DNA of 62,977 nt from a virus: IMG/VR virus record IMGVR_UViG_3300022821_000003, positions 1 to 62,977 of that record, one strand, 5' to 3'. Positions 29,710 through 48,941 of the stretch are shown in pieces. The translations under genes and the position numbers were made by a program. Below the pieces are notes generated by a model. The model worked only from the letters and a program-made list of their open reading frames with translations. It was not told where the DNA came from and did no database searches. Each line of letters starts with the position of its first letter. The stretch's first letter is position 1.

Positions 29710-30054
29710 TTATTTTAACTTAATCAAATGTAGATGCAAATGTGCAGGAACTGTCATAAGCTTTGGTGTGTTCCTAGCTATATACGAATAGCCTTGACAA
29801 ATACTATCAACTATTTTATAATACTCCTTAAGTTCTTCTTTATTTAGATCTCTCATCTTAGCTATGTGTCTCTTAGTAGCTAATAGATGATGTTTTGATG
29901 ATATTAAGTCATATGGGAACTTATTGTCCACAACAACCCAATAACGATATTCTTTTAATAAGAGGTCCTTTAAACAAAAAGGACATCCTTGTTTACTTCC
30001 TTTTAAAAACTTTTGATACATCTTTTCTGTTTCCTCCGTTCTTAATGAAGCCAT
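29710..30054 (-). CDS. HIT (histidine triad) family protein
   Basis: 114 residues. C-terminal HLHLH (105-109) is the histidine triad of nucleotide hydrolases/transferases, and CPFC (24-27) fits the zinc pair of HIT proteins. The FPYDLISSKHHLLATKRH core is typical of the family. Substrates would be adenylated or nucleotidyl compounds. Shortened compared with cellular HIT enzymes but complete in key residues. Confidence 0.75.
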   Translation of the reverse strand: MASLRTEETEKMYQKFLKGSKQGCPFCLKDLLLKEYRYWVVVDNKFPYDLISSKHHLLATKRHIAKMRDLNKEELKEYYKIVDSICQGYSYIARNTPKLMTVPAHLHLHLIKLK

Positions 30055-31521: not shown

Positions 31522-31902
31522 TTAAAATGCTCCAGTTAATATCTCATCTAAACTTTCATCTAAGTCTATTAATGCTTTTCTTTTATTAGATTTCCCTCTA
31601 TTCTTTTCAAACTCAAAGCATCTATCATTATAGTCTTTTGGTGTCTTAGGAATTACAGCTTTCTTTAGTCTTAAATCAAATCTACTATCGAATTCAGCCA
31701 CATAAAACTGTTCTGAATATCTGTATCCATGACTACCAGGTCCTAATGCATCTCCATCTAACTCATCATAATCAGACAGAAGAAATATCTCTCTACCATT
31801 TTCAGCCTCAAGTAAGAAAGCCTCTGTCCAATCATCTTCATAGCTGCATTTCATTTCTACTATATCTCCTGTATTATATTGTATGCTATTTATTACTATC
31901 AT
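31522..31902 (-). CDS. small early protein with YNDRCFEFEKNRGK signature
   Basis: 126 residues from ATG 31902 (MIVINSIQYNTGDIVEMK); an upstream in-frame ATG at 31920 would run antisense to the end codons of the neighbour's signature and is less likely. N-terminal small beta-barrel (NTGDIVEM...), then the signature YNDRCFEFEKNRGK, which extends as in the 18763 protein, and about 30 more residues. The start ATG is nested in the YD codons of the upstream gene's signature. Confidence 0.6.
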   Translation of the reverse strand: MIVINSIQYNTGDIVEMKCSYEDDWTEAFLLEAENGREIFLLSDYDELDGDALGPGSHGYRYSEQFYVAEFDSRFDLRLKKAVIPKTPKDYNDRCFEFEKNRGKSNKRKALIDLDESLDEILTGAF

Positions 31903-32179
31903 ATCTATGACATCTTTCATTATAATATTCTACCGACATATCTAACTTCTTTAATATTAAACCACCACTATCAAACTCAAAAGCTACAAAACACCAAGAA
32001 TATTTATAGTTATTGTCTCTTATATATCTAGGATAACTACCTTCAAAATGGTTATTGTTACCAAGGATATAGAATAAGTCATCATTATCTGAATTGTAAA
32101 TAATCTTACCTTCAGTAAAATCTTTATCCATTGAGTATTTAAACAATACTAAATCTTTATTTTTTATGTTCTTTATCAT
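31886..32179 (-). CDS. small early protein ending in YNERCHRYDSNK
   Basis: 97 residues from ATG 32179 (MIKNIKNKDLVLFKY), preferred to ATG 32209, whose first residues merely re-read the neighbour's tail. Beta-rich body, C-terminal signature YNERCHRYD. The start ATG lies inside the tail codons of the next gene upstream, so the genes are probably coupled in translation. Confidence 0.6.
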   Translation of the reverse strand: MIKNIKNKDLVLFKYSMDKDFTEGKIIYNSDNDDLFYILGNNNHFEGSYPRYIRDNNYKYSWCFVAFEFDSGGLILKKLDMSVEYYNERCHRYDSNK

Positions 32180-32483
32180 ATATGTGACATTCTTTATTAT
32201 AGTCCTCAACTGTTAAATATATCTTAATGAAGTCTTCCATATTTGGATGTATATCGTATTCACTTAAACTTCCAGATTCATGACATATCCGATATGAACA
32301 ACTGAATCCATGTTTATTACGTGCAGACCATCCATCTAAGCTTAATTTATCAGTAAGAACAAAATAGTAACCATCTTCTATTACAACCATAGCATCAATC
32401 TCTTTTTCTTTTCTACCATCAAATACATCAATCCATAAAAGCTTTATCCTTTCTTTGTTTTTAAATATTTTTATATCTAACAT
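32157..32483 (-). CDS. small early protein ending in YNKECHIYDKEHKK
   Basis: 108 residues, beta-rich, with C-terminal YNKECHIYDK. The ATG overlaps the stop of the upstream family member (ATGTTAG). No other motif; function unknown. Confidence 0.6.
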   Translation of the reverse strand: MLDIKIFKNKERIKLLWIDVFDGRKEKEIDAMVVIEDGYYFVLTDKLSLDGWSARNKHGFSCSYRICHESGSLSEYDIHPNMEDFIKIYLTVEDYNKECHIYDKEHKK

Positions 32484-32797
32484 TTGTTTTTATCATAATC
32501 AAAACATATCTCATTATATTCCTTTGATGATAGATTAGTTTTAGTTATTGTATCATAACTATCAGGGAGTCCACAGTTAGTCAATCTCCAGGAGTATCTA
32601 TATCCAAACATCTCCTTTGCTCTTGCTCCTCCACCTAATGCATTACTGTCAGAGCAGATATAATATTGTAGACCATAATCTGAATTATGGATTGATATCT
32701 TTCCTTTAAAACTCCTATATTTAGATGAAGTGATAACAGAGTCTCCATGTTTAAAAATCCCAAGACCCTCATTACTCTCTATATGACTATAGTTCAT
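32477..32797 (-). CDS. small early protein ending in YNEICFDYDKNKC
   Basis: 106 residues; N-terminal SH3-like segment (FKHGDSVITSSKYRSFKGKI) and C-terminal YNEICFDYDK. First in a four-gene chain of family members (32797 to 31522), downstream of a structured leader and a promoter at 32963. Confidence 0.65.
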   Translation of the reverse strand: MNYSHIESNEGLGIFKHGDSVITSSKYRSFKGKISIHNSDYGLQYYICSDSNALGGGARAKEMFGYRYSWRLTNCGLPDSYDTITKTNLSSKEYNEICFDYDKNKC

Positions 32798-32799
32798 AA

Positions 32800-32960
32800 A
32801 AAAACGATTACTCTGGTAAAGTCGGTTGTGACTTGTTAAGCAGAGTTCTCTTTATAGATAGACTTATATTAAAATTAGGGGGAGAAATACTATGATATCG
32901 ATTCAGTTATCGCTAACATTCGCATAGTATCCGACAATCTTTTAGGGTTTGTGTTTCCCC
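32800..32960 (-). ncRNA. structured 5' leader of the four-gene chain
   Basis: Begins just after the promoter -10. TAGGGG pairs with CCCCTA, and inside it ATACTATG pairs with CATAGTAT, enclosing GTTA-GCGA-TAAC with a GNRA tetraloop. A second hairpin (CTCTG/CAGAG with AGTC/GACT) comes before the ATG at 32797. A regulatory leader is likely (inference). Confidence 0.5.
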
Positions 32961-32962
32961 TA

Positions 32963-32992
32963 GTTATAGCACATTTTACATCGTTTTGTCTA
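32963..32992 (-). promoter_or_regulatory. extended -10 promoter, leftward
   Basis: TAGACA - 18 bp - TATAAC with TGC before the -10, same layout as 28040, 33245, 42543 and 43185 promoters. Drives the structured leader and the 32797 gene chain. Confidence 0.65.
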
Positions 32993-33027
32993 TAGTCTTT
33001 CCGATGGTAGATCCAACTACTGCTATA

Positions 33028-33201
33028 TTATTTACTGTGATTTACTCTGTATAAAGTTCGGCGTGCCGTCTCACAGTGAGAATCCCATTTATTTAGAGTC
33101 CACGGATTCAAACTTATGTTCTCTATGGACTTATATAATGCCTTATATAAAGCTAGACACCAATAGGCTTCTCTATTAGTATGTAGCTTTATATCTGCCA
33201 T
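33028..33201 (-). CDS. small Trp-rich hypothetical protein
   Basis: 57 residues, MADIKLHTNREAYWCLALYK..., with LNPWTLNKWDSHCETARRTLY; helical and basic. The CCACTCAAGTCACA box abuts the ATG, and a strong promoter lies 44 bp upstream. Not recognised; possibly a host-takeover protein, since it heads a transcription unit. Confidence 0.6.
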   Translation of the reverse strand: MADIKLHTNREAYWCLALYKALYKSIENISLNPWTLNKWDSHCETARRTLYRVNHSK

Positions 33202-33215
33202 TGTGACTTGAGTGG
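33202..33215 (-). promoter_or_regulatory. early-junction box CCACTCAAGTCACA
   Basis: Abuts ATG 33201; same family as 38456. Confidence 0.6.
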
Positions 33216-33244
33216 ATAAAAGATTCTTCTTACCCTACATATTA

Positions 33245-33274
33245 AGTATAGCATACTCGAGTCAATTTTGTCAA
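33245..33274 (-). promoter_or_regulatory. extended -10 sigma-70 promoter, leftward
   Basis: TTGACA - 18 bp - TATACT with TGC before the -10. About 110 bp around it match the rightward promoter region at 43112-43232 in inverted orientation, including GGGGTC upstream of the -35 and TAGGGTAAGA after the -10. Confidence 0.85.
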
Positions 33275-33297
33275 GTCTTTTCGACCCCTTAATCTTA

Positions 33298-33309
33298 GCT
33301 AATCTTAGC
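33298..33309. promoter_or_regulatory. GCTAATCTTAGC near-palindrome, operator-like
   Basis: Lies 24 bp upstream of the -35 at 33269-33274, with a second partial copy beside it. Confidence 0.5.
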
Positions 33310-33345
33310 CTTAGAATATGAGGGCTAAAATAAATATTTCTGAAA

Positions 33346-33621
33346 CTATTTTTTGTCAAATAAAAAACACGTTTCATTGTACTCAACTGTGGATAACTTT
33401 ATGTGTTTCAGAGATGATACTCCAGAATTATTTTCAGAATCATCCAACCTATTTTCAGAGAACCACCAACCAAAAATATATGTGTCTTTATCTAATGATA
33501 ATTTATCATCGCAATTAAACATAATACAGATATCACCACCAGCGACATCATTATAGATAATCCCGTTGACTTTAGATCCATATCTTGTGATTTCAATTCT
33601 ATCTCCCTTCTTATACTCCAT
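33346..33621 (-). CDS. small early protein ending in YNETCFLFDKK
   Basis: 91 residues: N-terminal SH3-like strand set (YKKGDRIEITRYGSKVNGIIYND) and C-terminal YNETCFLFDKK. Ends just before the promoter region at 33.2-33.35 kb. Family of ten in this genome; function unknown. Confidence 0.65.
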   Translation of the reverse strand: MEYKKGDRIEITRYGSKVNGIIYNDVAGGDICIMFNCDDKLSLDKDTYIFGWWFSENRLDDSENNSGVSSLKHIKLSTVEYNETCFLFDKK

Positions 33622-33931
33622 ATAAATCTTTGTTGTCTTTCCAAGTTTTTCTAGCCTTTAAGAATTCATCAAAGGTTGAGAAATCATCTACAGCGACATA
33701 TCCAAGGAACAATAACTCAGTCTTGATTGGTTTATTATATTTCTCATCTAACTCTATAAAAGGTAGACTCGATAGTATTTCGAATCTACCTATAAGACCA
33801 GACTTCATCCTAAGTTTGATTGTTGTTCCTTTACATTCATAATGCTCTAGCATTAGAGTAGCATCACAGAATCTACGATTAATTCTAGCTAGATATTCTT
33901 TATGTTTCTTTCTAAATATATATTTTTTCAT
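33611..33931 (-). CDS. hypothetical protein
   Basis: 106 residues, basic N-terminus and a beta-rich middle (GTTIKLRMKSGLIGRFEILSSLPF), helical end. Starts after a CCACCTAAGTCACT box and follows the E1-like gene. Not recognised; could belong to the Ubl cassette transcript. Confidence 0.5.
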   Translation of the reverse strand: MKKYIFRKKHKEYLARINRRFCDATLMLEHYECKGTTIKLRMKSGLIGRFEILSSLPFIELDEKYNKPIKTELLFLGYVAVDDFSTFDEFLKARKTWKDNKDLYGV

Positions 33932-33945
33932 AGTGACTTAGGTGG
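33932..33945 (-). promoter_or_regulatory. early-junction box CCACCTAAGTCACT
   Basis: Abuts ATG 33931; the upstream E1-like stop codon provides the TTAAT part of the box. Confidence 0.6.
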
Positions 33946-33950
33946 ATTAA

Positions 33951-34670
33951 TTAAAATGGCATTGGCTCAACAGGGATGCCAGCCGACATAGTAGCACCAG
34001 AGGGCACAGGAGGGGCATCAGGCGTTTTATTTGCATGGTCTGCCTTAATGTGTATGAGACTGTTAAGGTCTACGTATATGGAAGGTGCTATCTGGTTAAT
34101 CTTTAGAGCATGTTTCCTTACCATGTTTCCGATAAGACCTCCTATAACTAAACAGTTAAAAGAGATAGACCTACCAGTGCATTGTTCATGGTCGACAGCT
34201 CCTGGTTCTACTGTAGATAATAAGTAGGTTCTTGATTTATAATAATGTAGTTCAAATGATAAGCCTCCCATTCTTCCATCTATTATTGTTAAATCCTTAT
34301 CTTTATATATCTCTCCTAATCTTATTCTCTCTGCCATCGAATCTATTGTTATTATGATAAGACCATCTACAATATACTCCTCTTCTTTTATATTCTTCAT
34401 GATAGATATTGTAGTTCCTGTCTGTTCAAAGACATTTTTAGCTAGTGCCTTGACCTTGAACTCTCCGAGTTGGTCTTCTTTGTAGAACTGAGATGCTATG
34501 TTATGATTCTCTACCTTATCATTGTCATAGACAGTAATGTTACTGCATCCGACTTTAGCAAGTGTTAATGCAACCCAACTTCCTATCCCACCTGCTCCAA
34601 GGATATGTATTGGAAACCTTAAGTCTCCAGCTTTTATGATGTCGAGTTGTCTACTATATCTTTTAGACAT
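33951..34670 (-). CDS. E1-like Ubl-activating enzyme (ThiF family)
   Basis: 239 residues. Rossmann ATP-binding loop GAGGIGS (25-31), acidic strand end YDNDKVENHN with the conserved Asp and Asn, Lys in FKVKALA (about 71-74), and Cys164 in EQCTG as the candidate thioester cysteine. ThiF/MoeB/E1 enzymes adenylate the C-terminal Gly of ubiquitin-like proteins. It ends with VEPMPF, an SSB-like PF tip. It is downstream of and co-directional with JAB, E2-like and Ubl genes, so activates the Ubl at 37165 (inference). Confidence 0.85.
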   Translation of the reverse strand: MSKRYSRQLDIIKAGDLRFPIHILGAGGIGSWVALTLAKVGCSNITVYDNDKVENHNIASQFYKEDQLGEFKVKALAKNVFEQTGTTISIMKNIKEEEYIVDGLIIITIDSMAERIRLGEIYKDKDLTIIDGRMGGLSFELHYYKSRTYLLSTVEPGAVDHEQCTGRSISFNCLVIGGLIGNMVRKHALKINQIAPSIYVDLNSLIHIKADHANKTPDAPPVPSGATMSAGIPVEPMPF

Positions 34671-34671
34671 T

Positions 34672-35700
34672 CTATTGTTTTAGTTCATGACCATTACCTA
34701 ATCCTTTAATATCAGAATCGATAATATCATCTTCTTCAGATGAATCATTAACATTTTTATATGAATTAGCTATGTATCCATTGACAGCATCGTATTCATC
34801 TCCGTATAAATTACCATACTTTTCATAATAATCATCACAGATACAAAAGGTTACTGGATTATAACAATCAGGACAAAAGATTATTTCTTCATCGCTTTCT
34901 TCTAATCTTTCACACTCTTCACATCTCCTATCATCAACTCCATAGATTATATCATCAAGTTTATTTTCGAAAGTAGCCTTGTCCGTTCTGCCAAAGAATG
35001 AGTCTTGCGTTTTTTTTTTAGATTTTTCATAAGTCCTCTCAACTTTATAGACTTTTTCCCTAACCTTAGCTTTAACTTCAGCCTCACATTCAGAATATAT
35101 CTCTGGGCAATAGAATAAGAGTTTCTTTGTCTCAGCAATCTCATCATCTTTTTTAGATATTTCATCTTCTAAAGCTGATTGTTCTTCCTCTAATTTAGAG
35201 ACAGTTTCTTCTATAACTTTATCCAGATCTTCATCAATGAGAATCTCTACATCAACCTTTGTTTCATGTGGAGCAAAGACTAAACCAAAGTCAGATGGGT
35301 CTAACGGAAGCACATCGATACGTCCTAAAAACTTTCCCTCCTTATTCGTAACGATTGATATAAGTTTCTTATTGTCTTTTACATGCTCCTTTATTGTATC
35401 ATCATCTGTAGTTGACCACGAAACACCTAAATCTCCATGTGTATGCCACCAAACATTCCAGTCCTTTAATGACTCTTTAGCTTTAGACATATCATACATA
35501 AACTTAGCCATTGCTCCAGTATCTAGGTTAGTCGATGCAGAACCACATTCTTGGTCAAAAAGTGCTATATCTATTAACATAATCTCACCATCCTCTGTAA
35601 TAACACTCTTTCCCATCCCAGAGACTTCTCCAGGTGCATGATGAGTGTAGGCAGCGAGTTTGATTGCTGTTTTATTTTCTATTAATATTTTTTCTACCAT
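34672..35700 (-). CDS. JAB/MPN-domain isopeptidase
   Basis: 342 residues. N-terminal JAB domain with full JAMM metal site: Glu25 (GEVSGMG), His86-x-His88, Ser96 and Asp99 (HTHGDLGVSWSTTD), in the spacing of deubiquitinases. Then a coiled coil (about 155-215) and a C-terminal zinc ribbon region (CEEC...CPDC...C-x-C). Role: trimming the Ubl after its GG (removing the two C-terminal leucines) and/or removing it from targets. Starts at a CCACTTAAGTCGCT box. Confidence 0.85.
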   Translation of the reverse strand: MVEKILIENKTAIKLAAYTHHAPGEVSGMGKSVITEDGEIMLIDIALFDQECGSASTNLDTGAMAKFMYDMSKAKESLKDWNVWWHTHGDLGVSWSTTDDDTIKEHVKDNKKLISIVTNKEGKFLGRIDVLPLDPSDFGLVFAPHETKVDVEILIDEDLDKVIEETVSKLEEEQSALEDEISKKDDEIAETKKLLFYCPEIYSECEAEVKAKVREKVYKVERTYEKSKKKTQDSFFGRTDKATFENKLDDIIYGVDDRRCEECERLEESDEEIIFCPDCYNPVTFCICDDYYEKYGNLYGDEYDAVNGYIANSYKNVNDSSEEDDIIDSDIKGLGNGHELKQ

Positions 35701-35714
35701 AGCGACTTAAGTGG
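35701..35714 (-). promoter_or_regulatory. early-junction box CCACTTAAGTCGCT
   Basis: Abuts ATG 35700 of the JAB gene. Confidence 0.6.
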
Positions 35715-36819
35715 ATGAAAGCTCTTCTCCACAATCTGGACAATCACCATCTTCATTAATAGTTACAGAACGCTCGCAGTTCTCACAATATGCACTCGTA
35801 GTATTTAAGTTCTTGAAGTCTTCAGCAAACTTACGACCATCCCATTTCTCATTTTCATCCCAGTAAATATTAGAAAACCAATCGATTTCATTCTCTGGCT
35901 TAATAGTTACAGTCTGAGCACAAAAGAATTCTTCCTCTTGAATATATGGATTACCATAGTCTGGTTTTTCTAAGAATATAATTAAAAGATAAGCTAAACC
36001 GATTATATTCCCTTCATTCCTTAACTTCATGACCTCATCACCCACACTCTCTCCTAAACATAAAGTTGAATTGTTTATACAAGGATGGTGGTATTTGAAC
36101 CTGTCTTTATGTCTCTTGTAGTTTATTGCTCTGACTCTTTGACCAGAATCTAATGGGATTAAAATTTTATATGCACCTAAAGTAAAGTCTCCTAATGATG
36201 ATCCTTCTCTATGATATACTAAATCATTAGTTGTGATTAGAACACTTTTATATCCATCAGATTCTATTGGGTCTACTGATGCTATCTTCTTATTAGACAT
36301 AAACTTATCATACTTGGAAACAAGTTCATCCACATTAACTGTTAGTCCTCTTTTACTTTTAATTAAGTCTGCAAGCTTATGATTGTCACCTTCTATCTGT
36401 AGTTCTTTTCTAGATAAATCTGCAGCAAGACTTCTTGCAGTAGATACTAAAGAACGTAATGAATCTTCTTTAGACCTAATCTTTATTGGTAACTCAGATA
36501 TTTTCTTGAAAGCAAGTTCTCTAATCAATCCAACAAATGCACGTTTCTTTTCATCTGATAAATCAACAGAACTATCTAAATCAGACTCTTTGAATAGCAA
36601 ACTATATCCATTCATTCTATCTGTCCTATTCTCTAATGTATGACAGAACGGATGTTCGTCATCAAAAGCAATGTTTAACATACTATCTCTAATCTCGATA
36701 ATTGTTCCTTTATATTTATTATCTTCTACATCAAACAAATCTTTATTTGACATAAAAGGTTTAAAGTTTTTGTTAGTAACGATTCTATCACCAACATAGA
36801 CTTTTGTATTTTTTCTCAT
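35707..36819 (-). CDS. E2-like Ubl-conjugating protein with extra N-terminal domain
   Basis: 370 residues. Residues 190-310 have an E2 (UBC) pattern: beta strands, YHHPCINN (244-250), STLCLGE with the candidate catalytic Cys254, then a helix and EKPDYGNPY. C-terminal zinc ribbon CENC...CPDC. The first about 85 residues (VGDRIVTNKNFKP...) are homologous to the stand-alone protein encoded next door (36823-37086). A helical linker joins the two. It would carry Ubl as a thioester and pass it to a target. Confidence 0.8.
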   Translation of the reverse strand: MRKNTKVYVGDRIVTNKNFKPFMSNKDLFDVEDNKYKGTIIEIRDSMLNIAFDDEHPFCHTLENRTDRMNGYSLLFKESDLDSSVDLSDEKKRAFVGLIRELAFKKISELPIKIRSKEDSLRSLVSTARSLAADLSRKELQIEGDNHKLADLIKSKRGLTVNVDELVSKYDKFMSNKKIASVDPIESDGYKSVLITTNDLVYHREGSSLGDFTLGAYKILIPLDSGQRVRAINYKRHKDRFKYHHPCINNSTLCLGESVGDEVMKLRNEGNIIGLAYLLIIFLEKPDYGNPYIQEEEFFCAQTVTIKPENEIDWFSNIYWDENEKWDGRKFAEDFKNLNTTSAYCENCERSVTINEDGDCPDCGEELSST

Positions 36820-36822
36820 ATT

Positions 36823-37086
36823 TTATACACCATCTTCTAGCTCAAACTCTTCTCTTTCGAGCATACAGCCAGTCGAATTACTTAATAATCCATTCAAATG
36901 ATTTGTAAAGCTTAAACCTCGACCGAATCTAATGCCATAAAAGCTACTCTTTCGAGTCACGATTATACCACGAAACCGTTCTTGCTTTAAATCAATCTCT
37001 TTTCCCTTGTTGTCTTTAGGACTAAATCTTGGAGTTGTTTTTATAAAATCTCCAACATAAGCTCTTTTGACGGTTTTTCTTTTCAT
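36823..37086 (-). CDS. small domain protein, paralogue of the E2 N-terminus
   Basis: 87 residues, beta-barrel-like (YVGDFIKTTPRFSP ... RGIIVTRKSS ... LSFTNHLNG), aligns over its whole length with residues 1-85 of the neighbouring E2-like protein. May be an adaptor or target-recognition module of the conjugation system. The CCACTTAAGTCACT box abuts its ATG. Confidence 0.65.
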   Translation of the reverse strand: MKRKTVKRAYVGDFIKTTPRFSPKDNKGKEIDLKQERFRGIIVTRKSSFYGIRFGRGLSFTNHLNGLLSNSTGCMLEREEFELEDGV

Positions 37087-37100
37087 AGTGACTTAAGTGG
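37087..37100 (-). promoter_or_regulatory. early-junction box CCACTTAAGTCACT
   Basis: Best-consensus copy, abutting ATG 37086 and placed just after the terminator of the Ubl gene. Confidence 0.65.
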
Positions 37101-37120
37101 ACAAATGTCCTTAATTAAAT

Positions 37121-37154
37121 TATAAATAAAAGAGGCTATAACTGATAGCCTCTT
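37121..37154 (-). terminator. intrinsic terminator after the Ubl gene
   Basis: 10-bp perfect stem AAGAGGCTAT/ATAGCCTCTT with 5-nt loop, followed leftward by TTTATTTA. Would uncouple Ubl expression from the enzymes downstream. Confidence 0.85.
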
Positions 37155-37164
37155 GTTCTATAAT

Positions 37165-37401
37165 CTATAAAAGACCACCTTCTTTACGACCAACGATTTG
37201 AAGTGTATCACCATCTTCAAGTTTGTCGTCCAATTTGATTGGATCAGTTTCACCATTCATGTGAACAGCCTCTGATGAACCAACTGTCATGTTAGCCTCT
37301 TCTAAAACAAATCTTAGAGTAGATTCGTCAGGAACTCTAACAGTTACTGATTCTTCTCCAAACTTGGTAATCTCTACTGAGATTAATTCACTTCTTTGCA
37401 T
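37165..37401 (-). CDS. ubiquitin-like beta-grasp protein (Ubl)
   Basis: 78 residues: two N-terminal strands (SVEITKFGEESVTVRV), a helix (STLRFVLEEANMTV), then VHMNGETDPIKLDDKLEDGDTLQIV, the classic beta-grasp order of ubiquitin/ThiS folds, and C-terminus GRKEGGLL. Gly75-Gly76 would be exposed by removal of Leu77-Leu78, which the JAB protein nearby could do. Upstream of E2-like, JAB and E1-like genes, and has its own terminator, consistent with high-level substrate expression. Confidence 0.85.
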   Translation of the reverse strand: MQRSELISVEITKFGEESVTVRVPDESTLRFVLEEANMTVGSSEAVHMNGETDPIKLDDKLEDGDTLQIVGRKEGGLL

Positions 37402-37479
37402 TTAATTGTGGGAAATTATATATACACTCAGGAACATATAATTATCCAATTATTAATAATATATAACACCCCGAAGGGT

Positions 37480-37833
37480 CTATATTGTATCTGCGATAAA
37501 ACACTTTTCATTATAAGCCTTAGCTATATCTTCAGGTGTCAACTCTGGGTCTTCCTCACAGTAGTCATAACCATCTCTATCTGGATATGGTAAAGGACAA
37601 TCACTTTCTATTGCATCTAGATTTTCTAAGTCTTCACAGTCTAGTTTATAGTTACATTTTGGACAGATATAAGAAATATCATCGTTCTCATAACTACTTT
37701 CATGTTGGTCGTGCATATCCATATCTCCACAAAAGGATATTGTTCCATTTTCACTTCCCCAAGTCGTATATTGAGCTGTATAATCTAGGTGGTCTATTTC
37801 TTCTTTGCACTTAGGACATCTTGTTATCGCCAT
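37480..37833 (-). CDS. zinc-ribbon protein ending in YNEKCFIADTI
   Basis: 117 residues: N-terminal CPKCKEE and central CPKCNYKLDC zinc ribbon pairs, very acidic linker, C-terminal YNEKCF signature of the early family. A UUCG-capped hairpin (ACCC-UUCG-GGGT) lies right after the stop. Immediately upstream of the Ubl gene, so could be a conjugation partner (inference). Confidence 0.6.
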   Translation of the reverse strand: MAITRCPKCKEEIDHLDYTAQYTTWGSENGTISFCGDMDMHDQHESSYENDDISYICPKCNYKLDCEDLENLDAIESDCPLPYPDRDGYDYCEEDPELTPEDIAKAYNEKCFIADTI

Positions 37834-37838
37834 ATATT

Positions 37839-38231
37839 TTATCTAAATTTATTTAATTGTTTTACACTAACATTAGCCAATCCTAGCTTACTATCTGATA
37901 TTGTACTAAAAGCCGTACTTGATAAGTCTATTATTCTATCTGGGTATGTTGATTCATCTGGTCCATAATCTGTTATAAGGACTTCTACTGACTTACCATT
38001 ATCTAGGTTGGTTACCTCAACAAAAGAATATCTTATGAAGTCTCTCGTTGCACAAACATAATGTCCTATACTTGACCAATCTCCTATTGTATAGTCATAA
38101 TAGCTTGCTACTCCAGTTAATACTTTATCATCATTCTCAGGGAGGAAGTATCGATTTGATTCTTGCTCCTTATTACTGGAACATGAAGACAAAAAAAGTA
38201 TTAAGATAATTATTATTGGTATCTTTTCCAT
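37839..38231 (-). CDS. RlpA-like lipoprotein (double-psi beta-barrel)
   Basis: 130 residues. Signal peptide with lipobox LSSC (Cys17), then GVASYYDYTIGDW..., TNLDNGKSVEVLITDYGPDES and RIIDLSSTAF, the RlpA/expansin-type order with conserved GP and DLS. RlpA proteins bind or cleave denuded peptidoglycan. A secreted lipoprotein in the early arm may alter the envelope, for example superinfection exclusion, or help lysis. Its ATG lies inside the upstream gene's last codons. Confidence 0.7.
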   Translation of the reverse strand: MEKIPIIIILILFLSSCSSNKEQESNRYFLPENDDKVLTGVASYYDYTIGDWSSIGHYVCATRDFIRYSFVEVTNLDNGKSVEVLITDYGPDESTYPDRIIDLSSTAFSTISDSKLGLANVSVKQLNKFR

Positions 38232-38455
38232 AGTTTTTTATCAAATTTATGACATGCTTCATTATATTTCTCTGGTGTTTCATTATATAAAGATATGTTT
38301 TCAAAAAATACTCCACCATTATTTTTTGGACGCCATGCTATACCTTCACCAATCGATTCTATCTTAAAAACGAGACCGAGTTTCCATCCAGCATCAGGAA
38401 TCATTCCTCCCATTCTATTATGACATATAACAACATCTCCAACTTTAAATTTCAT
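38213..38455 (-). CDS. small early protein with YNEACHKFDKK signature
   Basis: 80 residues: SH3-like start FKVGDVVICHNRMGG, then YNEACHKFDKK near the end. The CCACTTAAGTCACT box abuts the ATG. Translationally chained to the RlpA-like gene by 19-nt overlap. Confidence 0.65.
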   Translation of the reverse strand: MKFKVGDVVICHNRMGGMIPDAGWKLGLVFKIESIGEGIAWRPKNNGGVFFENISLYNETPEKYNEACHKFDKKLWKRYQ

Positions 38456-38469
38456 AGTGACTTAAGTGG
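38456..38469 (-). promoter_or_regulatory. early-junction box CCACTTAAGTCACT (type example)
   Basis: Reading leftward: TTAATTAATCCACTTAAGTCACT-ATG. The core ACTTAAGT is an 8-bp palindrome. Copies occur at 25677, 28008, 31503, 33202, 33932, 35701, 37087, 39908, 41410 and 41683, with partial ones at 22361 and 40319. Role unknown (promoter element, operator, RNA processing site or translation initiation element). Confidence 0.65.
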
Positions 38470-38495
38470 ATTAATTAATAACTTCTGCACATTTG

Positions 38496-38603
38496 CTATA
38501 TGTCTGCTATATCACAGAGTTTACATGCAGAATGATAATACTTACCATGTTTATAAAATTCTTTTAATTCTTTGGTCTCTTTACATCTAATACATTCTTT
38601 CAT
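38496..38603 (-). CDS. 35-residue zinc-finger-like protein
   Basis: MKECIRCKETKELKEFYKHGK... CKLC: C-x2-C at the start and C-x2-C near the end, the CxxCxxxKxxxEF layout of small phage zinc proteins related to HNH-type zinc knuckles. No nuclease residues. Between the HAD phosphatase and the early-family gene. Confidence 0.55.
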   Translation of the reverse strand: MKECIRCKETKELKEFYKHGKYYHSACKLCDIADI

Positions 38604-38608
38604 ATTCA

Positions 38609-39058
38609 CTAGAACGAACCCTCTGCCACTTGAAGACATTTAAGACCAAGCTCCCTCCACATTTGGACGACTTGATTCCTGTCATCAAGGACAAATAGTA
38701 TATTATATTTATCTTTTACATTTGCATCAAACAACTCTCTCTTGACGATACTATCCCTTCTATTATCTTTATTGGTTCTCATAAACAAATCATCATAAGG
38801 GATATCATTAGTCATTAACCATTCAAGAGTTACATCTTTACAGTCTTCATCTCTCCCAGACAACAATATTATTCTGTAATCATCTGCTTTATACTTCTTT
38901 ACAATGTCTAAGATGTGATAATGAACTCCATCGCCTATTGCTTTATGATATTCGAATGGTGTTCTGTCAATCATGTAGGCTAAAGTGCCGTCAATATCGA
39001 CGATTAATGCTTTAGGTAGATATGCTCTATCTATTGCTATATTTTTTATCTTTGTCAT
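38609..39058 (-). CDS. polynucleotide kinase 3'-phosphatase domain (HAD family)
   Basis: 149 residues. DIDGTLA (21-27) is HAD motif I; LLSGRDED is motif II and LDDRNQVV motif IV. The order matches the C-terminal phosphatase half of T4 Pnkp, which removes 3'-phosphates or 2',3'-cyclic phosphates from RNA ends. The kinase half is a separate gene at 22357. The ATG is nested in the upstream gene's YDK codons. Confidence 0.75.
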   Translation of the reverse strand: MTKIKNIAIDRAYLPKALIVDIDGTLAYMIDRTPFEYHKAIGDGVHYHILDIVKKYKADDYRIILLSGRDEDCKDVTLEWLMTNDIPYDDLFMRTNKDNRRDSIVKRELFDANVKDKYNILFVLDDRNQVVQMWRELGLKCLQVAEGSF

Positions 39059-39368
39059 AGTTAAAACATTTTAAATTATAATCTTTTGTTGATTGTTTAA
39101 ATGGTTTTATTACACTGAATTTATTTTCATATTGCCAATGATTATCATAACAGTTTATAGTCCATCCATATTTATAATCAGAACAAGAATTAATTATTGG
39201 GTTGCCTCCCCTGTAATCAGGATTGTTGGATACAAACATAAAATAGTCATATTCTTCTGATGTTTTGTATATCTTCCCAACTGTTGAATGTCCAGAGTTA
39301 CTCACTACAACTACATCTATCGGTTCATCTTTTTTTAATTTTAATAGTTTTTGTCTAAATGCTTTCAT
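39027..39368 (-). CDS. small early protein with YNLKCFNYDKDKK signature
   Basis: 113 residues: a beta-rich domain with IDVVVVSNSGHSTVGKIYK, then YNLKCFNYDK near the C-terminus. The next gene's start ATG lies within the TAT-GAC codons of the signature. It begins 14 nt after the 3' end of the split tRNA. Confidence 0.65.
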   Translation of the reverse strand: MKAFRQKLLKLKKDEPIDVVVVSNSGHSTVGKIYKTSEEYDYFMFVSNNPDYRGGNPIINSCSDYKYGWTINCYDNHWQYENKFSVIKPFKQSTKDYNLKCFNYDKDKKYSNR

Positions 39369-39382
39369 ATATTTTATCTATG

Positions 39383-39885
39383 TTGCGAGAGTGGGATTTG
39401 AACCCACGACCTCATGGTTATATTAAAGCACTATCAATAACAAAATCTTTAGCCCAAAGGATTGTACTAATACAAAGATTATTTTTAGGTTTTTGATATC
39501 TTAAAGTTATTGTTGTTTTCTTTAACATATCTCCAGAGATTATATATACTTTATCTAATTTTTCGCACCAGATAGCTATATAATCTACCTTCTCGTAGCA
39601 TGATTCATATTTGATTCTTTTAGAACCAATTCTTTTACGAATATCTGCAACAACACATCCATTAGATGTTTTACCATGTTTTATTTGTATTTTTTTTAAA
39701 GTTCCATCAAAATCAGCTATCATATCATATGGTTCGTTATCTCCGAACGGCAATGAAACTGGATAGCCTCTTTTAATAAACTCAGCAATAATAACACCTT
39801 CTGCCTTATTTCCCTTTGATTTTGTATTCATAATTTAATAATGCACTAATGAGCCATGCGAGCTACCTGACTGCTCTACCTCGCT
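39383..39885 (-). tRNA. split tRNA-Met (CAU) interrupted in the anticodon loop
   Basis: 5' half 39885-39849 and 3' half 39419-39383 on the minus strand. Joined, they give a full cloverleaf: acceptor AGCGAGG/UCUCGCA (first pair A-A mismatch, as at the end of initiator tRNAs), D-stem GAGC/GCUC, anticodon stem CAUGG/CCAUG with loop CU-CAU-AA, T-arm GUGGG-UUCAAAU-CCCAC. The gap is 429 nt, starting after the anticodon U36, and is nearly filled by an endonuclease gene. No group I core is visible in the gap. Confidence 0.8.
39418..39831 (-). CDS. PD-(D/E)XK homing endonuclease inside tRNA-Met
   Basis: 137 residues. Asp36 (PYDMIADFDG) and Gln49-Ile-Lys51 (KIQIKHGK) match the PD-(D/E)XK group I-intron endonuclease family that includes the cyanobacterial I-Ssp6803I, which also targets a tRNA-fMet gene. 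The ORF starts 18 bases after the 5' tRNA half; its TAA stop uses the two A residues at 37-38 of the tRNA anticodon loop. A homing enzyme that cuts unsplit tRNA genes is the likely role. Confidence 0.75.
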   Translation of the reverse strand: MNTKSKGNKAEGVIIAEFIKRGYPVSLPFGDNEPYDMIADFDGTLKKIQIKHGKTSNGCVVADIRKRIGSKRIKYESCYEKVDYIAIWCEKLDKVYIISGDMLKKTTITLRYQKPKNNLCISTILWAKDFVIDSALI

Positions 39886-39910
39886 ACAAACCCACGATAT
39901 GTGGGTTTGT
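39886..39910 (-). promoter_or_regulatory. perfect hairpin abutting the tRNA-Met 5' end
   Basis: ACAAACCCAC / GTGGGTTTGT, 10-bp stem with 5-nt loop; its 3' edge touches nucleotide 1 of the tRNA. May help 5' processing or be a leftover of an older tRNA T-arm. Confidence 0.5.
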
Positions 39911-39921
39911 GACTTAAGTGG
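39908..39921 (-). promoter_or_regulatory. early-junction box CCACTTAAGTCACA
   Basis: Here the box precedes the hairpin and tRNA-Met rather than a coding start, which argues it is not only a translation signal. Confidence 0.6.
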
Positions 39922-39924
39922 ATT

Positions 39925-40299
39925 CTATAGATAGTTACTTCCTTTTAATTCTTTCAAGATTTTAGCTATTGCTCTTGGTCCTTGTGCATTTAAAATCTTG
40001 TCTAGTTTGTCTGCAACGAAATCCTCTTCTGTTTCATACTTTTGATAGAAATCTAACTCTTCTTGAATCTCTTTAATTTCAGACTGTAATCTCTTGATTA
40101 GCTTTTTTCTATTCTCAAAGACGAATTCATCATTTGGATAAATACTGACGCTTCCACCCCTTTGGTCGTCGTTTGCTGAGAAACAACCACCACCATTGAT
40201 AGCTGAAACTCTTAACAGCCTCCCGACATAAGATGTTCCTCCGTGTAGAGATTTTTTTAAGATGATCTCATCACCTATAATAACTCTAGGATTTTTCAT
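39925..40299 (-). CDS. hypothetical protein with SH3-like start and coiled coil
   Basis: 124 residues: beta-barrel-like N-terminus (VIIGDEIILKKSLHGGTSYVGRLLRV), a Gly-rich stretch and a coiled coil (QSEIKEIQEELDFYQKYETEEDF). The start of the barrel resembles the VGDxI start of the E2-like N-domain and the early family. Unknown function. Confidence 0.5.
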   Translation of the reverse strand: MKNPRVIIGDEIILKKSLHGGTSYVGRLLRVSAINGGGCFSANDDQRGGSVSIYPNDEFVFENRKKLIKRLQSEIKEIQEELDFYQKYETEEDFVADKLDKILNAQGPRAIAKILKELKGSNYL

Positions 40300-40346
40300 A
40301 GTTTATTTTAAATTAATAATAGTGACTTATTGTTTTATCTACAATA

Positions 40347-40538
40347 TTATTTTATAATAGTTAATGATAATATTGTTACAAATGTAGCACAAAACAACGA
40401 CCTAGCAACACTCTTAGCGACACGAGTGGAATGAGGCTTGGTGACGTTTTGCACTGTAAAGTTTTTTTGATCGCCATCACATAGAGCAGTGGCGATATAG
40501 TTGTGTCTTTTCATCTCCTTTTGTTTCCTTAACAGCAT
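40347..40538 (-). CDS. small basic protein with hydrophobic C-terminus
   Basis: 63 residues (or 55 from ATG 40514). The C-terminal LFCATFVTILSLTIIK could be a membrane segment. Overlaps the next small gene in another frame over about 60 nt. Uncertain. Confidence 0.35.
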   Translation of the reverse strand: MLLRKQKEMKRHNYIATALCDGDQKNFTVQNVTKPHSTRVAKSVARSLFCATFVTILSLTIIK

Positions 40539-40635
40539 GACTCACTACTGCAATAGGATTATTATATATATATGTTGCCTCAGATATACTACAATCTTGT
40601 TCATAGGCAATCTTTTTTATAGCATTTTTAATCAT
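40477..40635 (-). CDS. small hypothetical protein, first gene after the consensus promoter
   Basis: 52 residues, MIKNAIKKIAYEQDCSISEATYIYNN..., helical with a possible helix-turn-helix-like start. It follows a long structured leader from the promoter at 40766. Unknown. Confidence 0.5.
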   Translation of the reverse strand: MIKNAIKKIAYEQDCSISEATYIYNNPIAVVSHAVKETKGDEKTQLYRHCSM

Positions 40636-40666
40636 ATTGATTAATCTTATTAAATAATTGTCAAGT

Positions 40667-40817
40667 TAAGCTAGATAGAAACTCATAGATACGAAGTTCA
40701 TAACAAGTGTCGTTTGTACGGACTTGAGATGGATTGCCTACCGATAGGTCATTTATATCTATTCTATTATAACATAGTAAGAAAGTATTGTCAAGCAATA
40801 TACTATCTAGCTTAACC
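40667..40817 (-). ncRNA. structured leader closed by a 14-bp stem
   Basis: GTTAAGCTAGATAG (about 40817-40804) pairs perfectly with CTATCTAGCTTAAC (about 40680-40667). The consensus promoter at 40766-40794 lies inside this loop, so a transcript from an upstream promoter (40865) would contain the full structure. Tail after it (ACAATTATTTAATAAG) resembles the tails of the other RNA units. Confidence 0.5.
40766..40794 (-). promoter_or_regulatory. consensus sigma-70 promoter, leftward
   Basis: TTGACA - exactly 17 bp - TATAAT. Drives the 40635 gene and those to its left. Confidence 0.9.
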
Positions 40818-40864
40818 CAACAATCATTATATTCGATGTTGGGCGAAAAACAAATATTTTAATA

Positions 40865-40893
40865 CTAATATTCGGCAAAAAGAAGCTTGTCAA
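40865..40893 (-). promoter_or_regulatory. sigma-70 promoter, leftward
   Basis: TTGACA - 17 bp - TATTAG, 99 bp upstream of the consensus promoter, with a CCCAAC/GTTGGG hairpin between them. Confidence 0.65.
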
Positions 40894-40919
40894 TTAATAT
40901 TAAAATCCTTATTTTTTAG

Positions 40920-41021
40920 ACATTGTGAACCATGCTTATCGGCTTGTTTTATTCATCCCAGCTTGCACGAGGATTCTGATGAAAAATTTAATGCGTTCAT
41001 CTTCTTTACGCAACCGATATA
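40920..41021 (-). ncRNA. three-way-junction-like structured RNA
   Basis: ATCGGnTT pairs with AAGCCGAT and encloses GCGT/ACGC and CATC/GATG hairpins. It lies directly after the stop of the small gene at 41022. 102 nt, no reading frame. Could be a small RNA or 3' end structure. Confidence 0.4.
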
Positions 41022-41147
41022 TTAAATTGTGTCTAAACGAGCTGATGCTATAATCATTATAACGACATCTAATGTAACTCGATACATTTTCGCTATATCT
41101 AACATCTTTACTTTATTACGATATGCTGTTATTATTTTATAATACAT
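41022..41147 (-). CDS. 41-residue helix-turn-helix-like protein
   Basis: MYYKIITAYRNKVKMLDIAKMYRVTLDVVIMIIASARLDTI: two helices with a short turn (LDIAKMYRVTLDVV), as in Hin- or sigma-like HTH motifs. Overlaps the upstream early-family gene by 16 nt. A possible regulator, for example of the palindromic operators. Confidence 0.45.
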   Translation of the reverse strand: MYYKIITAYRNKVKMLDIAKMYRVTLDVVIMIIASARLDTI

Positions 41148-41395
41148 AATTTTGAGTCATATTCATGACATTGTTTATTATAATCTATTGATGAAAAAGG
41201 ATATGGTTCAATATGGTGCTCGTAACATCCAATCAACATTTTATTAGACCAGTAAATACCAGTAGGGCTACCCTTACTATAACTATCTATAGTAAAGATA
41301 TCTCCCACTTTAAAGCCATTATCTCTATTATAACTATTAGAACCTAATTCTGTTGTTGCGATAACTCTAACTGTTTGACCTATTTTATACTTCAT
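41132..41395 (-). CDS. small early protein with YNKQCHEYDSK signature
   Basis: 87 residues: two SH3-like segments (YKIGQTVRVIATTEL, FKVGDIFTIDSYSKG) and near the end YNKQCHEYDSK. An early-junction box is 15 bases upstream of its ATG. Family of ten. Confidence 0.65.
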   Translation of the reverse strand: MKYKIGQTVRVIATTELGSNSYNRDNGFKVGDIFTIDSYSKGSPTGIYWSNKMLIGCYEHHIEPYPFSSIDYNKQCHEYDSKLCIIK

Positions 41396-47357: not shown

Positions 47358-48941
47358 ATGTATAAAGAAATAAAATTTAACAACGACGCAAGAGTAAAGA
47401 TTTTAGAAGGAGTTAATATCGTCGCAGATGCTGTCGCAACAACTTTAGGTCCAAGAGGAAATACTGTGATATTCGAGGAGAGTCTTTATCCGACAATAAC
47501 AAAGGACGGCGTAACGGTTAGTCAGCAAATCTTATTAGAAGATAAATTCCAAAGTATGGGGGCTATGATGGCAAGAGAGGCAGCAGAAAACACAAATAGA
47601 GAAGCAGGAGATGGAACAACTTCAACAGTAGTTCTACTAAGAGGAATTGCAAACGAAGGACACAAATATATTACAGCTGGAATGAATCCTATACTTATTA
47701 AAAGGGGTATGGATGAAGCATTAATACAGGCTATCGATATTATAGATGGAAATAAAAAAGAAGTAACCTCTATAGATGAGAGAGTGCAGATTGCAACAAT
47801 CTCTGCAAACAATGATCCAGAAATTGGTCAAATGATTGCAGATGTTATAGAGGAAACAGGAACTAATGGTATTGTTACTGTAACAAATTCTAACTCAATG
47901 GAAACAGAAGTTGAATATGTTAAAGGAACAAAATTGGATAGAGGATATTCATCACATATGTTCATAACAAATAGAAAAAGACTTTCAGCAGAAATGGCTA
48001 ACCCAATAATTATTCTTACTACAGATAAGATTAATATGGAGAGTCAATTAATTAAAATTCTACAAAGCCTACTTGAAGCAGGTAAAAGAGAATTTATTCT
48101 AGTAGGTGGGACAGTAGAAGGACCAGCATTAGCATTTCTTACACAGAATCATTTACTTGGTAAGTTCACATGTATACCAGTGAGTATGCCTTCATTTGGA
48201 GATTACCAAAGAGACTTATTTTATGACTTGGCTGCATTAACAGGAGCAACTGTTCTTGGAGAAGAGGAGTCTACAAAGTTGAAAGATGGTAAACTATCTG
48301 ATTGTGGAATAGCAGAGAATGTAATTGTAACAAGAGATTCTACTATATTTACTGGAGCTAATGGAGATATAAAAACAAGAGTAGATGAAGTGAAAGCATT
48401 AATATCCAAATATAAAGATTTATTCATAATAGAACAATTAAAAAAACGTTTAGGCAGATTAAATGGATCTATTGCTAATATTAAAGTAGGTGGTTCATCA
48501 GAGACAGAACAGACTGAAAAGAAGTATAGAATAGAAGACGCATTAAATTCTACCAAATCTGCTGTAGAAGATGGCATTATTGAAGGTGGAGGAACAGCAT
48601 TGCTGAAAGCATCTTCATCAATGTTAATGGATAATGATATAAGCGAAGAACAAAAAGCTGGATGGAAAATTGTAGTAGCATCGATGGAGCTTCCATGTAA
48701 ACAGATCATGGAGAATTCAGGTTTACCAGCAGATGCAATTATCGCAAAGATTAAAGAAGATGGAATAGGTTATAATGCACTAACTAATAAATATGAAGAT
48801 TTATATGAGAGTGGAGTTATAGACCCAGTAAGATGTGTTAAAAAAGAATTATCTAACGCAGTTGCAACAGCAGGAACACTTTTGACATCCTCAGTCGCAA
48901 TCGCACTAAAGCCAAATGATAGAAGCAGTATTAGCAATTAG
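47358..48941 (+). CDS. groEL: GroEL-like chaperonin
   Basis: 527 residues, full length for the family (about 545). TLGPRGNTV, TKDGVTV, GDGTTSTVVL (Asp85) and SAVEDGIIEGGGTAL are the ATP-binding and equatorial motifs; apical domain has GYSSHMFITNRK. The GGM-rich C-terminal tail is missing. Forms a folding chamber, probably for the capsid or other virion proteins; phage chaperonins are known in some giant and marine phages. Next to GroES-like gene. Confidence 0.9.
   Translation: MYKEIKFNNDARVKILEGVNIVADAVATTLGPRGNTVIFEESLYPTITKDGVTVSQQILLEDKFQSMGAMMAREAAENTNREAGDGTTSTVVLLRGIANEGHKYITAGMNPILIKRGMDEALIQAIDIIDGNKKEVTSIDERVQIATISANNDPEIGQMIADVIEETGTNGIVTVTNSNSMETEVEYVKGTKLDRGYSSHMFITNRKRLSAEMANPIIILTTDKINMESQLIKILQSLLEAGKREFILVGGTVEGPALAFLTQNHLLGKFTCIPVSMPSFGDYQRDLFYDLAALTGATVLGEEESTKLKDGKLSDCGIAENVIVTRDSTIFTGANGDIKTRVDEVKALISKYKDLFIIEQLKKRLGRLNGSIANIKVGGSSETEQTEKKYRIEDALNSTKSAVEDGIIEGGGTALLKASSSMLMDNDISEEQKAGWKIVVASMELPCKQIMENSGLPADAIIAKIKEDGIGYNALTNKYEDLYESGVIDPVRCVKKELSNAVATAGTLLTSSVAIALKPNDRSSISN

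Follow-up and report, generated by a model that had tools for sequence, protein, structure and literature searches.

Do bacteriophages run their own ubiquitin-like (Ubl) tagging of proteins? The question is raised by a short gene cluster on the minus strand of IMG/VR record IMGVR_UViG_3300022821_000003, analyzed here over a window comprising the whole 62,977-nucleotide stretch. Our results indicate that this phage carries a complete set of genes predicted to attach a small Ubl tag to proteins and to remove it, the E2 being the weakest assignment, and that related sets are found across many other phages, including the crAss-like phages that dominate the human gut.

As a first step we examined the ORFs of the locus. 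The original prediction described a Ubl, an E2-like protein, a JAB peptidase with a JAMM site and a ThiF/E1-like protein, all on one strand within 3.5 kb, and this observation was confirmed, with the catalytic residues of the set intact. The genes are packed as one transcription unit, with 1, 6 and 3 nt between E1 and JAB, JAB and E2, and E2 and a small SH3-like ORF, respectively. This fifth ORF had been missed, as had a zinc ribbon at the C-terminus of the E2 and a terminator-like hairpin after the Ubl gene. The SH3-like ORF is a paralogue of the N-terminal domain of the E2 (tblastn to E2 residues 5-83, E 4e-4), and an orthologue is present in a close relative (G002).

Table 1. Features of the Ubl locus, positions being those of the window.
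Feature	Position	Strand	Length	Sequence features
Ubl, ThiS/MoaD/SAMP2-type modifier precursor (predicted beta-grasp)	37165..37401	-	78 aa	Ends GRKEGG-LL; Gly75-Gly76
Terminator-like hairpin between the Ubl gene and the enzyme genes	37130..37154	-		AAGAGGCTATCAGTTATAGCCTCTT + TTATTTA
SH3-like ORF	36823..37086	-	87 aa	
E2-like protein	35707..36819	-	370 aa	YHHPCINNSTLCLGE; N-terminal SH3-like domain, coiled coil, UBC-like core (about residues 180-300; His245-Pro...Cys254-Leu-Gly256), C-terminal zinc ribbon
JAB/JAMM metallopeptidase	34672..35700	-	342 aa	Glu25; H86-T-H88-x7-S96-x2-D99; Cys-rich C-terminal region
ThiF/E1-like adenylating enzyme, single domain	33951..34670	-	239 aa	GAGGIGS (G25xGG28xGS), D49, D51, N57, Q61, K72, D110, R115, EQCTG with Cys164

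We next asked whether each protein belongs to the family suggested by its motifs. When the window proteins were searched against Pfam, NCBIfam, PHROGs and PADLOC only the E1 was recognized, with a Pfam ThiF score of 64 bits against a cut-off of 28.1 (E 1.5e-17); Pfam Prok-JAB remained below its cut-off for the window JAB, and the window Ubl alone had no family hit. Profiles built from relatives were more informative. The E1 matched crAss-type E1s (hhalign E 2.6e-37), its motif residues being invariant in the alignments. The JAB profile matched Rpn11 (E 2e-7) and, more weakly, CSN5, as well as crAss-type JABs (hhalign E 4.1e-11), in 26 of which the JAMM residues are invariant. A profile of 10 phage Ubls matched PF1061 (2.1e-7), SAMP2 (2.6e-7), TtuB (3.7e-5), MoaD and SAMP1, and the diglycine was invariant in all 10; moreover, the Ubls of relatives passed Pfam ThiS cut-offs. 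An AlphaFold2 model of the Ubl, made with a crAss-heavy alignment before the better 10-sequence one existed, was of low confidence (pLDDT 59.7), with the element order bb-a-b-b and top PDB matches to ubiquitin, SUMO and NEDD8 (ubiquitin/SUMO at E about 3e-3).

The E2 proved to be the weakest link. A profile of its core from ten sequences matched eukaryotic UBC with Cys aligned on Cys (hhalign E 2.8e-5, score 34.6, against a null maximum of 15.6 among 60), Cys254 and Gly256 were invariant in 10 window-type sequences, and a profile link to crAss-type E2s was found (E 1.1e-5). However, this assignment leans on the relatives, since the window and G002 alone did not reach significance against UBC (E 0.085), an earlier three-sequence profile did not match UBE2D2, and crAss-type E2 profiles did not match UBC directly. 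The AlphaFold model was poor (pLDDT 58.5 overall, although 70-84 in much of the core), with the element order a-bbbb-Cys-a-a, and a fold search with it returned no UBC match in PDB, thus the fold was not confirmed. MAFFT alignments of the window E2 with crAss E2s misplaced the N-terminal strands and were not used to judge the fold, and the Prok-E2_A/B families in 398 genomes of the phylum of G006 gave too few members for a profile.

To evaluate whether the genes stay together in other phages, we searched IMG/VR. Scans with the single window E2 or E1 found nothing, and tblastn of the E2 in phages gave no hit, alignment-based scans being needed. The close relative G002 (portal 77% identical) keeps the E1 at 61%, the E2 at 38%, the JAB at 44% identity and the start of a Ubl cut at the contig end. 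Full Ubl-E2-JAB-E1 sets were found in the loci L007, L101, L102 and L114, the last with a tandem Ubl having two GG junctions, and in the rearranged order E1-Ubl-E2-JAB in L107. Among 94 distinct loci chosen by E1 alone, 88 have a canonical JAMM gene within four genes and 73 an E2 motif, against 0 of 636 background ORFs for the JAMM gene. The catalytic residues are conserved across very diverged relatives, and the diglycine or terminal Gly is invariant in both Ubl groups. Cultured crAss001 has the set as gp79-gp76, and homologues are present in Flavobacterium phage FpV4; these show the same four-gene order and catalytic residues, although their Ubls have long C-terminal extensions after KSG, the E2 core is more diverged, and a fifth downstream gene of about 230 aa is present. 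They are annotated only as hypothetical, metalloprotease-domain and thiamine biosynthesis proteins. A scan of bacterial genomes with the E1, limited by the pattern used, returned only a MccB-like Paenibacillus protein and one nanoarchaeal MAG, so no bacterial source was identified.

The hairpin is also conserved. It was found in the same position in 42 of 57 cassettes and in 33 of 41 non-redundant cassettes, with 33 different sequences, compared to at most 1 of 41 after the other cassette genes, as would be expected if the modifier is made in excess of its enzymes.

Taken together, the best explanation, in which we have good though not complete confidence, is a phage-encoded Ubl conjugation and deconjugation pathway. 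In this view, the Ubl would be made in excess because most transcripts stop at the hairpin after its gene; the JAMM peptidase would trim the Leu-Leu tail to expose the Gly-Gly end, which the E1 would adenylate and bind as a thioester on Cys164; the Ubl would then pass to Cys254 of the E2, which would attach it to substrate amino groups, its accessory modules (SH3-like and zinc ribbon here, pentapeptide repeats or cysteine-rich modules in relatives) choosing the substrate; and the JAMM peptidase could remove it again. What the sequences show is the identity and intact catalytic residues of Ubl, JAB and E1, the homology of the E2 by profile, the co-occurrence of the genes and the conserved hairpin, while every catalytic step, the chain of transfer and the substrates are inferred from sequence alone, and no E3 was recognized. 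Given the frequent neighbourhood of replication genes, the likeliest substrates are host or phage proteins acted on during takeover and genome replication.

The original interpretation was thus only partly supported. Its core, a phage-encoded Ubl-conjugation set, is supported for all four proteins with the reservation on the E2 given above, and its suggestion of a counter-defence role stays a hypothesis. Filing the set with PRTRC cassettes is not supported, since the PRTRC_ThiF model scored 31.9 bits against a cut-off of 144.75 and no other PRTRC model hit the window proteins. The proposal that the tag serves to build the tail or capsid is not favoured, as the cassette lies on the strand opposite the structural genes, and in crAss-like and several other phages it sits next to primase, helicase, UDG or RecA genes.

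Among the alternatives, the one that survives best, although unlikely, is a sulfur-carrier module, in which a ThiS/MoaD/TtuB-like Ubl trimmed by the JAB would be loaded with sulfur by the E1 for a nucleotide, tRNA or cofactor modification, the E2 being an accessory protein. The best solved relatives of the Ubl include TtuB, MoaD and ThiS, and the E1 resembles ThiF/MoeB; since the Ubl is closest to sulfur carriers and SAMPs, sulfur transfer is not excluded. However, the recurrent third protein has an invariant Cys in a UBC-like HPxx..CLG context and matches UBC, no rhodanese, sulfurtransferase, ThiG or tRNA-thiolase partner was seen in the window and crAss-type loci inspected, and an excess-Ubl architecture suits a consumed modifier better than a recycled carrier. 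Somewhat less likely is a purely counter-defensive role, as a decoy or deconjugase interfering with bacterial Ubl-based immunity (Bil, CBASS Cap2/Cap3) rather than running a pathway of its own. Bacterial Ubl conjugation is indeed used in anti-phage defence (PMC10097602, PMC11153139; Bil as summarised in PMC12948488), and JAB-type deconjugases are proposed as counter-defence in Borgs (PMC12660748); nevertheless, a decoy or deconjugase would not need intact E1 and E2 active sites, yet all are conserved, and the set accompanies nearly all sampled E1 loci rather than being patchy. A virion-assembly module comparable to lambda tail protein I (Ubl) and K (JAB plus NlpC) is very doubtful: phage Ubl/JAB pairs in tail clusters are known (PMC1779556), but the cassette is not in the structural gene block, there is no NlpC domain, E1 and E2 have no counterpart there, and crAss copies lie beside primase and UDG. 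Finally, a MccB-like adenylation enzyme making a small modified peptide or metabolite, with the rest of the set incidental, suggested by MccB being among the best solved relatives of the E1 by phmmer, is dismissed because a Ubl with conserved Gly, an E2 and a JAB recur with the E1 and no precursor peptide or MccB peptide-binding domain was seen.

How does the set compare with the systems already described? Among the closest are the bacterial E1/E2/JAB/Ubl gene neighbourhoods, types 6a-6e of Iyer, Burroughs and Aravind 2006 (PMC1779556), above all 6d, which likewise has separate genes for a small Ubl with a conserved C-terminal Gly, an E2-like protein, a JAB peptidase and an E1. Types 6a-6c fuse E2 to E1 and often JAB, and 6e usually fuses JAB to E1 and has an inactive E2; such E2-E1 and JAB-E1 fusions are absent here, as is the E1-E2 fusion of CBASS type, and PADLOC models of E1-E2 fusions matched only the adenylation domain of the phage E1. 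Type 6d has a JAB-N domain and a helical partner and its E2 lacks the upstream His, whereas in the phage the JAB domain begins at the N-terminus, no helical partner was recognized, an SH3-like ORF is adjacent instead, and the E2 has an upstream HP motif and its own accessory domains. The Bil (bacterial ISG15-like) operon, a bacterial weapon against phage, has a Ubl, E1 and E2, the Ubl being attached to protein targets (PMC12948488). Bil also includes a JAB-type deconjugase. In the present case the phage owns the set. The archaeal SAMP/de-SAMPylase system and Borg elements (PMC12660748) share a SAMP2-like Ubl with diglycine, a ThiF/UbaA-like E1 and a JAMM peptidase, and Borgs are likewise mobile elements carrying parts of a Ubl system, although mostly deconjugases. 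Haloferax-type SAMPylation is not known to use an E2. The lambda/T1 tail proteins I and K (PMC1779556) share a phage-encoded Ubl with C-terminal Gly plus a JAB peptidase, but lack E1 and E2, belong to the tail cluster and have the JAB fused to NlpC. No report of the full phage set was found in the open-access literature searched, which did not cover preprints or most subscription papers.

A broader reading, which we regard as somewhat more likely than not, is that Ubl conjugation with dedicated E1, E2 and JAMM deconjugase is a widespread and probably ancient part of the replication-stage programme of crAss-like and several other phage lineages. In that case viruses of bacteria would run their own Ubl tagging of host or viral proteins, with swappable substrate-recognition modules on the E2 and the modifier over-produced through a conserved terminator.

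Ubl conjugation in bacteria is known so far mainly as a defence against phages, while here the phages, including the most abundant ones of the human gut, carry the predicted pathway themselves. The finding opens a direct experiment in a cultured phage (crAss001 gp76-gp79 in Bacteroides intestinalis), bears on whether phages use tagging to seize hosts or to answer Ubl-based immunity, and supplies very diverged E2/JAB/E1/Ubl sets, including a tandem, polyubiquitin-like Ubl, for work on the origin of ubiquitin signalling.

The record of 62,977 bases ends with 127 bases that repeat its first 127, so it is probably a complete phage genome of about 62.85 kb. TerL, portal and a GroEL lie on the plus strand, whereas the cassette is on the minus strand, with the genes in the transcription order Ubl, SH3-like ORF, E2-like protein, JAMM peptidase (JAB) and ThiF-like E1. 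The last four genes are separated by 3, 6 and 1 nt, while the Ubl gene is set off by 78 nt that contain a terminator-like hairpin. In the same part of the genome we found eight small ORFs (80-117 aa) that share a C-terminal motif YNxxC, often YNxxCxxxDK; 11 matches were seen in all among 275 ORFs, against an average of 1.6 when the ORF ends were shuffled, and small ORFs ending in similar YN/FN motifs are present in G002 (IMGVR_UViG_3300025018_000162), the closest phage found with the cassette. The coordinates of these and other features, including some from related loci (designated L), are collected in the table.

Coordinates of the cassette genes and of other features in the window and in related loci
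Record	Coordinates	Strand	Feature
Window	37165-37401	minus	Ubl
Window	36823-37086	minus	SH3-like ORF, 87 aa
Window	35707-36819	minus	E2-like protein
Window	34672-35700	minus	JAMM peptidase
Window	33951-34670	minus	ThiF-like E1
Window	31886-41395	minus	Eight small ORFs with C-terminal YNxxC
Window	12798-18026		Late protein, 1742 aa, containing a DnaJ J-domain (Pfam 8.6e-13)
Window	47358-48941	plus	GroEL-type chaperonin
Window	37839-38231	minus	DPBB lytic-transglycosylase-like lipoprotein
Window	38609-39058	minus	PNKP-type HAD phosphatase
Window	29710-30054	minus	HIT-domain protein
L114	3498-3914		Tandem Ubl of two beta-grasp repeats
L007	5333-6976		E2-like domain fused to a long pentapeptide-repeat region (Pfam 5.7e-31)
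L026	8614-9309		Poorly conserved gene of about 230 aa after E1 (crAss-type locus)
L048	8648-9361		Poorly conserved gene of about 230 aa after E1 (crAss-type locus)

The identity of each protein was evaluated by comparison with family models and by profile searches. E1 matched Pfam ThiF with 64 bits against a cut-off of 28.1. JAB has the full HxHx7Sx2D motif and Glu25, and a three-sequence profile matched archaeal and yeast Rpn11 (E 2e-7 to 5e-7) and, weakly, CSN5. The window Ubl alone is unrecognised; however, a profile of ten Ubl domains from related cassettes matched PF1061, SAMP2, TtuB, MoaD and SAMP1, with the SAMP2 match running to the last residue of that chain, and two relatives pass the Pfam ThiS cut-off.

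The E2-like protein was not recognised by any family model. We built a core profile of ten sequences (the window, G002, L104, L107, L100, L101, L102, L108, L007 and L111) and aligned it with a profile of four human E2s (UBE2D2, UBE2N, UBE2I and UBE2L3). The alignment had an E value of 2.8e-5 and a score of 34.6, against a maximum of 15.6 in 60 column-shuffled controls, and runs from the G-x-F-x-I strand through HPxI..NGxxCLG, Cys on Cys, to the PN..xP segment. With the window and G002 only the match is not significant, so the E2 assignment depends on the relatives, some of which have near-textbook forms such as HPNISSDGDIC (L111) and HPHVQGSGNIC (L102). The AlphaFold model displayed a UBC-like order of elements with confidence of 70-84 in much of the core, although its overall arrangement is poor and Foldseek found no E2.

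To further explore whether the genes stay together, we compared the window with other phages carrying the cassette. G002, whose portal is 77% identical, keeps the same gene order, with E1 at 61%, JAB at 44% and E2 at 38% identity and all catalytic residues, plus the SH3-like ORF and a Ubl N-terminus cut off at the contig end. More distant phages keep the complete set, L007, L101, L102 and L114 in the same order and L107 as E1-Ubl-E2-JAB. For a broader count, loci were fetched by similarity to E1 only; among 94 distinct loci with enough flank, 88 have a canonical JAMM ORF within four genes and 73 an E2 motif, while none of 636 background ORFs of 150 aa or more has either. In two loci, L099 and L103, E1 is followed directly by a Ubl and there is an upstream protein with an FCLSG motif; L103 has a short JAB-like protein (HTHPPG), and L099 has AAA and VWA-like genes instead of an obvious JAB.

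Moreover, tblastn of the window E1 retrieved crAss-like phages, Flavobacterium phages and others at 23-29% identity. Their neighbourhoods hold the same set: a protein with an N-terminal Ubl-like domain that ends at an invariant Gly followed by a long extension, an E2-like protein with invariant His and Cys, a JAMM protein with all catalytic residues invariant, and E1. Profile comparison between the window-type and crAss-type sets gave E values of 2.6e-37 for E1, 4.1e-11 for JAB and 1.1e-5 for the E2 core (score 41.5, null maximum 12.7), although the Ubl link is weak (E 0.0027). In the cultured Bacteroides phage crAss001 the genes are gp79, gp78, gp77 and gp76, located between primase (gp80) and, after gp75, uracil-DNA glycosylase (gp74), with catalytic residues intact. 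The poorly conserved gene of about 230 aa that often follows E1 in crAss-type cassettes, represented by gp75 in crAss001, could be an E3-like or substrate protein.

This kind of system is known in bacteria (PMC1779556; Bil as summarised in PMC12948488) and partly in archaea and Borg elements (PMC12660748), and a Ubl plus JAB pair is known in lambda-like tail clusters (PMC1779556). The crAss genome papers that we could search do not mention ubiquitin or ThiF (PMC7886860, PMC6235969, PMC10172136), nor does a jumbo-phage survey describe the set (PMC7824862). Literature searches pairing crAss names with ubiquitin-related terms returned nothing relevant; as preprints and most subscription papers lay outside these searches, an earlier report is possible.

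Every Ubl in the window-type alignment has Gly-Gly at the end of the domain, with tails of LL, R, RK, none, Q or GK, and the tandem Ubl of L114, which resembles a polyubiquitin precursor, has two such junctions (NVKGG-S and NVEGG-Q). This suggests that JAMM cleavage exposes the Gly-Gly end and could also deconjugate. E1 has the adenylation residues and a conserved Cys, and E2 has the conserved Cys; while these residues are seen in the sequences, the steps of the pathway are inferred from them, none having been shown biochemically. The accessory domains on E2 differ from phage to phage (SH3-like plus zinc ribbon here, pentapeptide repeats in L007, cysteine-rich modules in L102 and L111), which fits substrate choice by the E2 protein. 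Neighbours are often replication genes, namely primase in crAss-like phages, DnaB and primase in L104 and L107, and RecA in L100.

We also studied the transcriptional layout of 57 cassettes, in which the median gap is +64 nt between Ubl and E2, -68 nt between E2 and JAB and -8 nt between JAB and E1; start codons were taken as the first in frame, so overlaps may be overstated. A terminator-like hairpin lies in the Ubl-E2 gap in 42 of 57 cassettes (shuffled gaps: mean 0.5, maximum 3; random places: mean 0.8). After removing similar cassettes, 33 of 41 have one within 75 nt of the Ubl stop, all 33 different in sequence, against 0 of 40 after the preceding gene, 0 after E2, 1 after JAB and 0 after E1. 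The simplest reading of this conserved layout is that the modifier, consumed by conjugation, is made in excess of the enzymes.
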